Assembly (NCBI GenBank): GCA_947496375.1
Contig: CANMCY010000013.1
Span: 1-64,000, forward strand
DNA from: Flavobacteriales bacterium
GTDB lineage: Bacteria > Bacteroidota > Bacteroidia > NS11-12g > UBA955
Length of the DNA stretch: 64,000 nucleotides
Reading direction: 5' to 3'
In this document: one piece after another, positions 5,527-16,025 of the stretch
How positions within the stretch are numbered: position 1 is the stretch's first letter
Layout: each line of letters opens with the position of its first letter
Made by a program: the position numbers and the translations under genes
The notes under the pieces: model-generated
What the model saw: only the letters and a program-made list of their open reading frames with translations
What the model was told of the DNA's origin: nothing
Database searches by the model: none

Positions 5527-6239
5527 AAAATTCAATCAGGGAGTTTGAAAGCTGGATTCTGTATCGCGACGATGATTTTATCGTTGTAAACAAACCTCCT
5601 TTTGTCCCTTCCCTGCACGAGCGCGGAAAATTCACCCATATATCGCTGCTGGAAATGGCCCGAGAATTCAACCCGGACGCCACACTCTGCCATCGGCTTG
5701 ACCGGGAAACCAGCGGCGCTGTGGTTATTGCACTCAATGCAGATGCCTACCGGCACATGAGTATTCAGTTTGAAGACCGCAAGGTGGAGAAAATATACCA
5801 TGCTGTGGTGGAAGGTCAGATCCATTTTAATGACCATCTGGTGGATTTACCCATACAAACAGAAATTCCCGGTAGGGTGCGAATTGACCGATCCGGCAAA
5901 CCTTCTGCAACCTTTTTTAAAGCGCTGGAGGTTTTCAGACATTTTACCCTCATGGAATGTCAGCCGGTTACCGGCAGGATGCACCAAATACGCGTGCACC
6001 TTGAATCGCAAAACACCCATATACTCGGAGATGAACTGTACGGAGGTAAAATGTTTTTACTTTCTCAGCTAAAACGCAAACATAAAGGTGAGGACAGCCC
6101 ACTGATAAAACGGTTTGCCTTGCATGCGGCGTTAATAGCATTCAGAAAATTAAATGATGAGGTAGTTGGCGTAGAAGCACCCTATCCTAAGGACATGGAA
6201 GTACTGCTCAAAATTCTGCGAAAATACGATGCCGTTTAA
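5523..6239 (+). CDS. RluA-family RNA pseudouridine synthase
   Basis: Converts uridine to pseudouridine in rRNA or tRNA. The catalytic motif HRLDRETSG (residues 57-65, Asp60) is intact. The flanking segments VVNKPPFVPSLHERG, EKIYHAVVEGQ, GRMHQIRVHLES and HILGDELYGG are typical of RluA/RluC/RluD enzymes. There is no N-terminal S4 domain, so it is closer to short RluA/TruC-like forms; the target site cannot be assigned. It is coupled to the exonuclease by a 4-bp overlap and to the next gene by 1 bp. Confidence 0.93.
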   Translation: MKNSIREFESWILYRDDDFIVVNKPPFVPSLHERGKFTHISLLEMAREFNPDATLCHRLDRETSGAVVIALNADAYRHMSIQFEDRKVEKIYHAVVEGQIHFNDHLVDLPIQTEIPGRVRIDRSGKPSATFFKALEVFRHFTLMECQPVTGRMHQIRVHLESQNTHILGDELYGGKMFLLSQLKRKHKGEDSPLIKRFALHAALIAFRKLNDEVVGVEAPYPKDMEVLLKILRKYDAV

Positions 6240-7696: not shown

Positions 7697-9487
7697 ATGA
7701 AAAATATCCGCAACTTCTGCATCATTGCCCACATTGACCATGGAAAAAGCACGCTGGCAGACCGGTTGCTGGAATACACCGGAACAATAGACAAAAGACA
7801 ACTTCAGGCCCAGACACTGGATGATATGGACCTGGAAAGAGAACGGGGTATTACCATTAAAAGCCATGCCATTCAGATGAATTATAAACTGGACGGCGAA
7901 GATTATGTATTAAACCTGATTGACACACCCGGTCACGTAGATTTTAGCTATGAGGTGAGCCGCAGTATTGCCGCCTGTGAAGGGGCTCTACTAATTGTAG
8001 ATGCAAGCCAGGGCATTGAGGCACAGACCATTAGTAACCTATTTATGGCGCTGGAACATGGACTCGAAATCATTCCGGTATTAAATAAAATTGACCTACC
8101 GGGTGCAATGCCGGAAGAGGTAAAAGATGAAATTGTGGATTTGCTGGGCTGCAACCGCGAAGAAATCATTGCTGCCAGCGGCAAAACCGGACAGGGCGTG
8201 CATGATATTCTTAGGGCCATTGTAGAACGTGTTCCTGCTCCCAAAGGCAATCCCGACGCACCTTTAAAGGCCTTGATTTTTGATTCGGTATTCAACTCCT
8301 TTCGCGGTATCATTGCCTATTACAGGGTAATTGATGGCAGCATCAAAACCGGTCAGCATGTAAAATTTATGAACACCGGGCACGATTATCATGCGGATGA
8401 AATTGGCGTGCTAAAACTGGACTTACTGCCCAAAAAAGAAATTAAAGCAGGTGATGTAGGGTATATTATTTCCGGAATCAAAGATGCCAAGGAGGTAAAA
8501 GTGGGGGATACCATTTCTGATTTCGTGAACCCAACCACAGAAACCATCAAAGGGTTTGAAGATGTTAAGCCCATGGTATTTGCCGGTATTTATCCTGTGG
8601 ATACAGAGGATTATGAGGAGCTGCGGGAAAGTATGCAGAAATTGCAACTCAATGATGCCAGTATCGTGTTTGAACCTGAAAGTTCTGCTGCGCTGGGTTT
8701 CGGCTTCCGCTGCGGATTCTTGGGCATGTTGCACCTGGAAATTATTCAGGAAAGACTGGAGAGAGAATTTGGGATGACAGTAATTACCACGGTACCCAAC
8801 GTAAGCTATGTGGCTTATGACATGAAAGGTGAAGTAATTCCGGTGAACAATCCAAGTGATTTACCCCCACCCGAAAAAATAGATTATGTGGAAGAACCCT
8901 ACATTACGGCTTCTGTAATCACGAAATCTGAATATGTGGGCTCGGTAATGAGTCTTTGCCTTGATAAACGTGGAATTTTAAAAAATCAGGTTTACATAAC
9001 ATCCGACCGGGTGGAAATGACCTTTGAAATGCCATTGGCAGAAATTGTGTTTGATTTTTATGACCGCCTGAAAACCATCAGTAAGGGTTATGCCAGCTTT
9101 GATTATCAACCCCTGGGTTACAAAGAGAGCAAACTGGTAAAAATGGATATTATGCTCAATGGCAAGCAGGTAGACGCGCTTAGTGCGATTATCCACCGAG
9201 ATAATGCCTTTGATCTGGGTAAGAAAATCTGTAAAAAATTAAAGGATCTCATCCCCCGCCAACAATTTGAAATTGCGATACAGGCGGCCATTGGTGCCAA
9301 AATTATTTCAAGGGAAAATATATCTGCGATACGCAAGGATGTGACAGCCAAATGTTATGGTGGCGACATTAGCCGAAAACGCAAACTGCTTGAAAAACAA
9401 AAAGCAGGTAAAAAGCGCATGCGCCAGGTGGGTAACGTTGAAATTCCCCAAAGTGCCTTCATGGCAGTTTTAAAGCTGAACGATTAA
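7697..9487 (+). CDS. lepA: Elongation factor 4 (LepA)
   Basis: Ribosome-bound GTPase affecting translocation and 30S biogenesis. G motifs: [13 protein letters not shown] (G1), [10 protein letters not shown] (G2), DTPGHVDF (G3), NKIDLPGA (G4). The LepA-specific C-terminus includes [20 protein letters not shown]. 596 residues, full length. The start at ATG 7697 gives [16 protein letters not shown], the family's normal N-terminus, and the gene has its own -7 element just upstream. A weak AT-rich hairpin follows at 9500-9519. Confidence 0.97.
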
Positions 9488-12553: not shown

Positions 12554-14184
<1,631 letters not shown>

Positions 14185-14185
<1 letters not shown>

Positions 14186-14415
14186 TGAAAGTTGAAATCT
14201 TAACCCCGGATAAAACGCTATTCAGCGGTGATGCTGATGTGGTAACTGTTCCCGGAATAAACGGCAGTTTACAAATACTTGAAAATCACGCCCCAATGAT
14301 TGCCAACCTGAAGAAAGGAAGTCTTAGCATCAAAAGCAAAGACGGCAAGCAACAGTTCGACGTAACCGGAGGACTGGTTGAGGTTTTGAAAAACAATGTA
14401 ATCGTTTTGGTTTAA
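14185..14415 (+). CDS. atpC: F1 ATP synthase subunit epsilon, short form
   Basis: Central-stalk subunit. Only the N-terminal beta-sandwich is present (MKVEILTPDKTLFSGDADVV, then LQILENHAPMIANLKKG). 76 residues, against about 130 in E. coli: the C-terminal two-helix domain that inhibits ATP hydrolysis is missing. Short epsilon subunits are common in Bacteroidota, so this is not a truncation. The sequence ends cleanly before an intrinsic terminator. Confidence 0.95.
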
Positions 14416-14437
14416 GACTTATTTGAACTACACACCA

Positions 14438-14463
14438 AAAGGCCGGCACGACCGGCCTTTTTT
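14438..14463 (+). terminator. Intrinsic terminator of atpDC
   Basis: GGCCGG, CACGA loop, CCGGCC, preceded by AAA and followed by TTTTTT. A strong GC stem with T-tract. Confidence 0.92.
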
Positions 14464-14694
14464 GTTGACCGTTTTGTCATGCCTTTATCATTTATAATGT
14501 ATAACTTTTCAACAACTAAGCCCAACAAAACAAACCACTCCAATTAGTCAAAACCAGCACCAATAAGGTTTTCAAGCATTAAACAGCGTTTACAAGAATA
14601 TGCATTGTTTATTTTGTATAACTTATACAGCGCATAATTTACACAAATTACTTGAACAAAAGGTGTGTTTTGTTCAACTTTGCTAAACAATACT
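14464..14694 (+). promoter_or_regulatory. Long regulatory leader of the ECF sigma gene
   Basis: AT-rich spacer with no gene. It holds a direct repeat TGTATAACTT at 14498-14507 and 14615-14624; the second copy is part of a perfect 15-bp palindrome TGTATAACTTATACA (14615-14629). A larger inverted repeat covers the sigma promoter and is listed separately. This much structure is unusual in a window where most spacers are under 100 bp. Confidence 0.55.
14652..14677 (+). promoter_or_regulatory. Inverted repeat over the sigma-factor promoter
   Basis: TTGAACAAAA (14652-14661), 6-bp spacer, TTTTGTTCAA (14668-14677): a perfect 10-bp inverted repeat. The left arm supplies a -33-like TTG (14652-14654); the right arm ends inside a -7-like CAACTTTG (14675-14682), with a 20-bp spacer between. 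A dimeric regulator bound here would cover the promoter core. The ATG is 12 bp after the -7 element. Confidence 0.6.
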
Positions 14695-15234
14695 ATGACA
14701 AAACTAACCACAGACTTCAACAATCTCATGGTGCATGAGCTGCAACCCCTGAGAAATTATGCATTGTCGTTGACCCACAATATGGATGATACGAAAGACC
14801 TGGTGCAGGAAACTTTGTTGAAAGCCCTGCGCTACAAAGACAAATTTGCGGAGGGCACCAATCTTCGTGGCTGGTTGTATACGATTATGAAGAATAACTT
14901 CATAAACAATTACCGCAGGGATGCCAAGCGGAACACATTTCTTGACAGTACAGACAATACCTACTTTATTGACCTCCCCAGCCATAGGGTAGATAATGAC
15001 GCAGAGTTGAAGTTTATTCGAAAAGACCTGGAAGAAGCCATCGACAGTCTGCCACTTGAACTTAAAATCACCTTCACCATGAATGCCGAAGGTTATAAAT
15101 ACCATGAAATAGCCGAAGAGTTAAACATTCCTATTGGAACTGTAAAAACCCGAATCTTCGTTGCAAGACGTATACTGCGGGAGCAACTGGCATCCTATGG
15201 TACTGAATTTGGTATGAATGCCATGAATGCTTAA
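14695..15234 (+). CDS. ECF-type RNA polymerase sigma factor
   Basis: Alternative sigma factor of 179 residues. Region 2 (about residues 10-80) contains LRNYALSLTHNMDDTKDLVQ and LVQETLLKALRYKDKF; region 4 (about 110-165) contains LPLELKITFTMNAEGYKYHE and IPIGTVKTRIFVARRILREQ, the helix-turn-helix for the -33 element. ATG 14695 is chosen over the frame's GTG at 14665, which lies inside the promoter palindrome. There is no anti-sigma gene beside it. In Bacteroidota such sigma factors often head carotenoid clusters, and a lycopene cyclase follows here. Confidence 0.93.
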   Translation: MTKLTTDFNNLMVHELQPLRNYALSLTHNMDDTKDLVQETLLKALRYKDKFAEGTNLRGWLYTIMKNNFINNYRRDAKRNTFLDSTDNTYFIDLPSHRVDNDAELKFIRKDLEEAIDSLPLELKITFTMNAEGYKYHEIAEELNIPIGTVKTRIFVARRILREQLASYGTEFGMNAMNA

Positions 15235-15245
15235 CATTAATTAAC

Positions 15246-15253
15246 GAACTTTG
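15246..15253 (+). promoter_or_regulatory. Possible -7 element of the lycopene cyclase gene
   Basis: GAACTTTG, one base off TAnnTTTG and sharing AACTTTGC with the sigma-gene promoter. A transcript from here would begin inside the terminator stem and so escape it. No -33 TTG is seen. Confidence 0.3.
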
Positions 15254-15255
15254 CA

Positions 15256-15281
15256 GGCATCCCGATTGGGATGCCTTTTTT
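15256..15281 (+). terminator. Intrinsic terminator after the sigma factor, touching the cyclase start
   Basis: GGCATCCC, GATT loop, GGGATGCC, then TTTTTT. It ends 6 bp before the ATG of the lycopene cyclase, leaving no room for a separate promoter after it. Confidence 0.88.
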
Positions 15282-15287
15282 ATATAT

Positions 15288-16025
15288 ATGAATAAAAGCC
15301 TGTATCTCTGGATTAACATAGTCACCTTAATCGGGCCACTGGCATTATCTTTCGATAAACGCGTGGCATTTCACAAAGTATGGAAGCACTTTCTCACGGC
15401 CATGTTAATCACCTCAGCCATCTACCTGATATGGGATGTCATTTTCACAGCACTGGGTATCTGGCACTTTAACCCGGAATATGTGACCGGTTTTTATATC
15501 ATCAATCTGCCATGGGAAGAAATTTTCTTTTTTGTGGCTGTGCCATACGCCTGCCTCTTTATTTATGCATGCTTAAGACATTACCTCCCAAAAATCGAGC
15601 ATAGGAATGTGGGACGTCTAATTTCATTATTGCTACTCTCATTCAGTATTGGCATGGTGGTATTGCATTACAACAAGCTCTACACAGCCGTCACATTCAG
15701 CTTACTGGCATTTACCATCCTAAACCAGTTACTGGTAACCCGAGGCAGTTACATTACCCATCTGTATGTTGCATGGCTAATCAGTGTGATACCCATGTTT
15801 GTGGTCAATGGCCTGCTAACCGGACTTCCGATCCTGATTTATGAAAATACTGAAAATATGGGCATCCGAATTCCCTCATTCTTACCGGGGATGCAGTACG
15901 GAATTCCCCTTGAGGATTTTTTCTACAACTTACTCTATATGATGTGGATGATATGGATATTTGAGGCAAGAAAAAATAAACAAGCCATACATCTTTTCAC
16001 ACCCGAAATCGAGCAGCAACGCTAA
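15288..16025 (+). CDS. Lycopene cyclase, fused CrtYcd type
   Basis: Integral-membrane enzyme that closes beta-ionone rings on lycopene. 245 residues, about seven hydrophobic helices. The two catalytic motifs of the heterodimeric/fused family are present, one per half: PWEE at 75-78 (INLPWEEIFFF) and PLED at 207-210 (GIPLEDFFYN). The domain order matches crtYc-crtYd fusions of Bacteroidota. The usual crtI, crtB and crtZ partners are not in this window, so it acts with genes elsewhere or is a remnant. Its stop directly abuts the stop of the convergent MCE gene. Confidence 0.88.
   Translation: MNKSLYLWINIVTLIGPLALSFDKRVAFHKVWKHFLTAMLITSAIYLIWDVIFTALGIWHFNPEYVTGFYIINLPWEEIFFFVAVPYACLFIYACLRHYLPKIEHRNVGRLISLLLLSFSIGMVVLHYNKLYTAVTFSLLAFTILNQLLVTRGSYITHLYVAWLISVIPMFVVNGLLTGLPILIYENTENMGIRIPSFLPGMQYGIPLEDFFYNLLYMMWMIWIFEARKNKQAIHLFTPEIEQQR

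Follow-up and report, generated by a model that had tools for sequence, protein, structure and literature searches.

Positions 14498-14701, upstream of an ECF sigma factor gene and the lycopene cyclase gene that follows it, are probably an operator at which a LitR/CarH-type regulator would repress the sigma-cyclase operon in the dark. The basis for this reading is a set of half-sites conserved in sequence and spacing, their placement on the promoter, a regulator gene with light-sensing residues, and a half-site upstream of crtZ. Coordinates are those of the window, the whole 64-kb stretch of DNA that was analyzed, from a genome of 2.49 Mb in total.

An intergenic stretch of about 280 bp separates an ATP-synthase-like gene pair (stop near 14414) from the start of the ECF sigma gene; the genes of this pair, like several on contig C1 mentioned below, were identified by eye. 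The common upstream element is an 8-base half-site, TTGTNNAA in forward (F) and TTNNACAA in reverse (R) orientation, and the palindromes described in the initial annotation are parts of a wider array of these. In the features below, ranks are those within the window for a position weight matrix (PWM) built from 82 half-sites of 23 promoters outside the source genus.

14498-14515, plus strand: upstream half-site pair TGTATAAC-TT-TTCAACAA, starts about 11 bp apart (genus alignment)
14614-14621, plus strand: half-site F1, TTGTATAA, also the left half of a 15-bp palindrome (PWM rank 2)
14639-14646, minus strand: half-site R1, TTACACAA on the plus strand, facing F1 with starts 25 bp apart (PWM rank 7)
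14652-14659, minus strand: half-site R2, TTGAACAA on the plus strand, left core of a 10-6-10 inverted repeat, over the -33 TTG (PWM rank 3)
14670-14677, plus strand: half-site F2, TTGTTCAA, right core of the 10-6-10 repeat, entering the -7 box (PWM rank 1; TTTTGTTNAAC in 7/7 genomes of the source genus)
14652-14682, plus strand: core promoter TTG-N20-CAACTTTG (from the sequence; CTTTG kept in 7/7 genomes of the source genus)
14694-14701, minus strand: weak fifth half-site TATGACAA, matching at 7 of 8 letters, 24 bp past the F2 start and over the start codon (from the sequence)
14695-15234, plus strand: ECF sigma factor gene, 179 aa, with Pfam Sigma70_r2 (region 2) and Sigma70_r4_2 (region 4), and TIGR02937 above its cut-off
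15255-15276, plus strand: terminator-like hairpin and T-run between sigma gene and cyclase, seen by eye in 6/7 genomes of the source genus (alignment)
15288-16025, plus strand: lycopene cyclase with two PF18916 domains (Pfam) and two stretches of TIGR03462, the sole PF18916 protein in the genome

TTG-N20-CAACTTTG is presumably a primary-sigma promoter of the Bacteroidota -33/-7 type. What had been called an ECF sigma promoter is the promoter of an ECF sigma gene, and by its boxes it looks like the primary-sigma type. A scan with the sigma-70 consensus gave three sites against 2.9 expected, none at the sigma-gene promoter. The cyclase has the two lycopene-cyclase domains of the CrtYcd type, with two stretches each for PF18916 and TIGR03462. 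An RNA element was also considered for this region and dropped, since no Rfam family matched at the gathering threshold within 14100-15400.

The repeats pointed out in the initial annotation are all present. The perfect 10-6-10 inverted repeat lies at 14652-14677 (arms 14652-14661 and 14668-14677) and runs from the -33-like TTG (14652-14654) into the -7-like box CAACTTTG (14675-14682), while the perfect 15-bp palindrome, TGTATAACTTATACA, occupies 14615-14629, 22 bases before the 10-6-10, and its half TGTATAAC is found again at 14498-14505. Among the window's perfect inverted repeats, just one other combines 10-bp arms with a loop no longer than 10 bases, a hairpin at 14437 just past the preceding gene. 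At least four half-sites fall within 72 bp in 3 of 200 shuffles of the window, the half-site being A+T rich, and the rarity of the repeats taken alone is suggestive only.

Neither palindrome recurs exactly in the genome. The 10-6-10 has no other exact copy in the 2.49 Mb and is unique at up to two mismatches; the closest match, with three, lies within a glycosyltransferase-like ORF (identified by eye), and it was dropped as a genome-wide repeat. The nearest match to the 15-mer has one mismatch, and at up to three mismatches it is no commoner than its reversed control (167 matches against 172). The one-mismatch copy, on contig C35, was set aside: the sole ORF of at least 100 aa there is a 145-aa frame that appears repetitive by eye. 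The initial annotation had named the lack of further copies as evidence against its proposal, and for the whole palindromes that is the outcome, though the half-sites recur.

The seven genomes of the source genus were compared at these positions. The left half of the 15-bp palindrome is mostly conserved, with exact TTGTNNAA at the F1 position in four, GTGTTTAAC in two, and a deletion in one. Its right half is not kept even among these seven, and the palindrome was dropped as a unit. In the 10-6-10, the right-arm core TTTTGTTNAAC is invariant and the left arm varies, with exact TTGAACAA at the R2 position in 4/7 and TTNNACAA in 5/7. With conserved cores inside varying arms, the perfect palindromes are partly fortuitous; judging from the alignments, what is conserved is the 8-base half-sites and their spacings, rather than perfect symmetry. 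The two palindromes accordingly do not stand as operator units, and the pair at 14614-14646 had gone unnamed.

Of 70 genomes of the family, 57 have the sigma gene at E of 1e-40 or below, and the upstream regions of the best 30 of these 57 matches were compared first. Counted over the 200 bp upstream of each, half-sites were over-represented 3.5- to 8-fold over shuffles, depending on the group: 32 against 7.3 in the source genus (7 promoters), 41 against 7.9 in g14 (11 promoters), 33 against 4.2 in g13 (7), 9 against 1.3 in g7 (2), and 6 against 1.7 in three others. Their spacings are also constrained. An F site is followed by an R site at 24 bp in 19/30 promoters and at 25 bp in 10/30, and an R by an F site at 18 bp in 14/30, where no spacing in shuffled promoters ever exceeded 3/30. 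The distance from F to F is 65-67 bp in g13, g14, and g7 and 56 bp in the source genus, apparently shorter there by about one helical turn. With the PWM from other genera, the four half-sites of the sigma-gene promoter take ranks 1, 2, 3, and 7 of the whole window.

The remaining 27 promoters were fetched after motif and spacing had been chosen. Among the 13 from g4, all in this later set, an F-R spacing of 25 has the highest mean of 62 spacings, well ahead of the rest (z 6.0). A promoter was counted as having the 24/25 pair if at most 1 of 100 shuffles reached it, and 56 of the 57 were counted, one 80-base upstream stretch (L161) being too short. By this measure the facing TTGTNNAA...TTNNACAA pair, whose starts lie 24 or 25 bp from each other, exceeds shuffles in 54/56 promoters: 23/23 of those used for the PWM, 7/7 in the source genus (outside the PWM, but already seen when the motif was chosen), and 24/26 of those fetched later. 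The two without it are from one g6 and one g12 genome. The R-18-F pair passes in 24/56, with 7/7 in the source genus, 10/12 in g13, 2/2 in g7, and five others. The most widely conserved spacing is therefore that of the 14614-14646 pair; the 10-6-10, which had been judged unlikely to be there by chance, is real but more lineage-specific.

Exact TTGTNNAA-N15-17-TTNNACAA occurs in the source genome only as F1-R1, and the reversed control likewise gives one. TTNNACAA-N10-TTGTNNAA is mildly enriched over the 70 genomes (121 against 72 in reversed controls), with one copy against one in the source genome, and the genome richest in it, G026 with nine copies, has neither the sigma gene nor LitR, so the R-18-F pattern alone defines no regulon. 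TTGTTYAACTT was also tried as a regulon finder and rejected; its two further copies are both in frames without a visible link to light or carotenoids (by eye).

R2 shares bases with the -33 TTG and F2 with the -7 box, and the motif is short and A+T rich, so the repeats might merely reflect the TTG and TTTG boxes of a core promoter in A+T-rich DNA, with no operator involved. F1-R1, however, lies clear of the promoter on its upstream side, and no spacing is conserved more widely than 24/25. The position of F2 relative to the -7 box differs between g1 and g13/g14 (by eye), while the R-18-F spacing is constant in g1 and g13. On balance a by-product origin appears very unlikely.

Half-sites are also found at both ends of the region. 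The pattern of the 14498-14515 pair, TGTWYAACTTWTCNACAA, is present in 5/7 promoters of the source genus, one of which has it displaced to -103, and in 3/50 other upstream stretches scanned, all three from genus g13. In two g13 promoters (L041 and L042) the upstream F-11-R element, about 198 bp before the sigma match, reads CTTATCCACA, a DnaA-box-like sequence. At the other end, an exact F-24-R pair with R over the first sigma codons is found in 11/11 g14, 2/2 g7, and 6/7 g13 promoters among the best 30. In g13 and g14 a half-site TTNNACAA lies within sigma codons 3-5 (L021, L030, L037, L041, and others), where by eye it persists despite amino-acid changes.

The initial annotation, which saw no regulator in the window, had suggested a light sensor of the LitR/CarH type, and one is encoded elsewhere in the genome. 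A MerR_1 search found two proteins. The smaller has 113 aa and no B12 or other sensor domain, leaving G000:C42:7386-8348 (321 aa) as the single MerR plus B12-binding protein of LitR/CarH architecture. It has the MerR helix-turn-helix (PF13411 MerR_1, 50.3 bits), B12-binding_2 (PF02607, 42.1 bits), and B12-binding (PF02310) domains, the last at 23.0 bits (E 7.4e-05), under its cut-off of 32.1. Its top PDB match is T. thermophilus CarH (5c8d, 6.9e-23). In the alignment to 5c8d, CarH residues W131, E141, H142, and H177 are kept. The His following the Trp of Wx9EH in many CarH proteins is a Leu here, and the Gly/Pro of D/ExHx2G/P is not kept, with a Ser at that position. The same alignment has Wx9EH, GxxW, EH, GxxH, and GxxxP, including the His lower ligand; GxxW, EH, GxxH, GxxxP, and CarH H177 are among the signatures described in the available part of PMC11796333. 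The start of the gene, here called litR, is 6 bp away from an epimerase-like gene that diverges from it, with a photolyase gene on the far side of the epimerase-like one.

The half-sites can be compared with two kinds of known operator. CarH operators of Thermus, Bacillus megaterium, and Myxococcales have, in the accessible part of PMC9304148, a half-site nnnnTnnACAn bound as tandem 11-bp repeats. As there, the sites here have a TnnACA core (TTnnACAA/TTGTnnAA at 14614, 14639, 14652, and 14670), with several per promoter, lying over the -35 or -10 and associated with carotenoid genes and a B12-type regulator. Unlike those tandem direct repeats, they face each other in pairs whose starts differ by 24/25 or 18 bp, and the target would be an ECF sigma-cyclase operon. 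The commonest same-orientation spacings in the 30 promoters are 66 (F-F) and 14 (R-R), 11 not being among the commonest; end to end, a facing pair at 24/25 covers 32 or 33 bp, roughly the length of three 11-bp CarH repeats, which may be coincidence. The PplR1/PmlR2 LitR sites of Pseudomonas, from what is available of PMC9758184, read T(G/A)TACA-N12-TGTA(C/T)A, and PmlR2 is a repressor working with a LOV protein; one of its sites covers the -35, and a second lies past the transcription start but ahead of the start codon. The 10-6-10 resembles these in holding a 6-N12-6 pair, TGAACA-N12-TGTTCA at 14653-14676, over the -33 and -7 boxes. The half-sites differ (TGTACA in Pseudomonas, TGAACA/TGTTCA here), and where PmlR2 acts with a LOV partner, the regulator here has B12 photosensor residues. 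The suggestion of a LitR/CarH operator thus gains a regulator one gene away from a photolyase gene, a CarH-like half-site, and a LitR-like spacing, and loses the palindromes as its units.

The same regulator may have other targets. The initial annotation had proposed a search in front of crt genes, and the half-site does recur upstream of crtZ-crtI-crtB on contig C1 (crtB identified by Pfam, crtZ and crtI by eye), as TTTTGTGTAA followed 35 bp on by TTACACAA. TTTTGTGTAA precedes crtZ in 5/7 genomes of the source genus, three of these with an exact R at 35 bp. Upstream regions were compared for 26 of 30 crtZ loci, 19 of them outside the genus (L127-L130 had no start match). Outside the genus an F site is found 16 bp before the estimated start in 7/19 and 17 bp before it in 1/19, all g14; in a single g13 region the distance from F to R is 34 bp, and 6/19 have no exact half-site. 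Support for crtZ as a predicted target is good in the genus and g14, and weak elsewhere.

For litR itself, 20 of 30 upstream regions were compared (10 others were missed by the start finder, two of which, L053 and L054, were viewed later), and 13/20 have no exact half-site. In the source genome (L011 7257-7276, G000:C42), two F half-sites 12 bp apart fall within the frame of the divergent epimerase, some 110-130 bp ahead of where litR starts; both are found in 4/5 loci listed for the genus. Being within a coding frame they may be there by chance, and they were not retained as an operator. Autoregulation and coding coincidence are both possible.

ECF genes are often autoregulated, and with the half-site also present before crtZ, the ECF sigma factor might itself recognize these elements. 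Unlike a -35/-10 pair, the sites are found either way round and with more than one spacing, and the sigma gene has a promoter of apparently primary type with -33/-7 boxes; recognition by the sigma factor is scarcely credible on these grounds. A separate block, TTATCAACG (L047 at about 6100-6112, L048 at about 9200-9215), is exact before crtZ in 5/7 genomes of the source genus and also precedes a photolyase-like gene pair on the same contig as crtZ. This block may be an element of promoters that the ECF factor recognizes.

With E of 1e-15 as the limit, 62 of the 70 genomes have a LitR relative. Both it and the sigma gene are found in 53, the sigma gene only in 4, LitR only in 9, and neither in 4, a weak association (Fisher p 0.03, ignoring relatedness of the genomes). 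Four genomes with sigma and without LitR compare with 5.3 expected from genome incompleteness alone. Two of them (G064 and G065, 96% complete) keep the sigma gene and half-sites with no LitR detected, which fits incompleteness and fits another regulator too. The half-sites might, then, be the operator of a different carotenoid regulator, another MerR or one of TetR/MarR or redox type, with the targets of LitR elsewhere. The 13 litR upstream regions without an exact half-site and the spacings unlike CarH repeats would also favor this. Against it are the match of the TnnACA core and N12 geometry to LitR/CarH sites, the absence of a B12 domain from the genome's sole other MerR_1 protein, the 113-aa one, and genus g9, which has neither sigma nor LitR, though crtZ and cyclase are retained in one genome of the two. 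A different regulator is a clearly less likely explanation than LitR.

The pairing of sigma gene and cyclase is constant. PF18916 is found in 61 of the 70 genomes, four of which have the cyclase without the sigma gene. In all 57 sigma-bearing genomes it shares the strand of the sigma gene and follows at a distance of 8-123 bases (from the end of the sigma match to the first cyclase domain), and none has PF18916 on any other contig; this is the only PF18916 lycopene cyclase of each. Its position resembles the place of an anti-sigma gene. In the CarQ-CarR-CarS system of Myxococcus xanthus, an ECF sigma gene likewise directly precedes a membrane-protein gene in carotenoid control, but that neighbor, CarR, is a DUF1109 anti-sigma as far as the consulted portion of PMC8156234 describes it, and the neighbor here matches only PF18916 in Pfam; homology to CarR was dropped for this reason. 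By eye the cyclase has no obvious cytoplasmic anti-sigma domain, and seems to start in a hydrophobic segment. It is conceivable, if rather unlikely, that the cyclase is bifunctional, both enzyme and membrane anchor (anti-sigma) of the ECF factor, the B12 light sensor setting the amount of sigma and the substrate/product state of the cyclase setting how much is free. If so, pigment synthesis would be under the control of both light and its own enzyme.

Under the LitR/CarH reading, the array would provide many half-sites for a MerR regulator that is an adenosyl-B12 photoreceptor, over and upstream of the primary-sigma promoter of the ECF sigma-lycopene cyclase operon. From the sequence we infer binding by G000:C42:7386-8348, repression, and relief by light. 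In the dark, regulator on F1-R1 (14614-14646) and R2-F2 (14652-14677) would cover the -33/-7 boxes and block RNA polymerase. Light would break a bond of the B12 cofactor, the regulator would be released, and the sigma factor expressed, with the cyclase turned on in the light by read-through or from a promoter of its own. The same half-site probably lets the regulator act on crtZ-crtI-crtB as well. What would be new is the arrangement: inverted pairs rather than 11-bp direct repeats, and an ECF sigma gene as target. Among the literature matches listed, from a search with subscription papers mostly outside it, there was no report of a light sensor wired to an ECF sigma factor in Bacteroidota.

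These results bear on how sigma-carotenoid gene pairs are regulated in Bacteroidota, a group in which pigment induction by light has been described with no regulator assigned to it. In Chryseobacterium lacus, also of the Bacteroidota, crt genes are light-induced, and in the available part of PMC7064467 the authors report no car/lit operon genes and no identified regulator. If the operator proposed here is correct, the B12 photoreceptor regulon would extend to a Bacteroidota family known here from metagenome assemblies, with an operator grammar of facing TTGTNNAA pairs that could be searched for in other genomes, and with a light sensor wired to an ECF sigma factor, so that light would switch on protective pigment genes.
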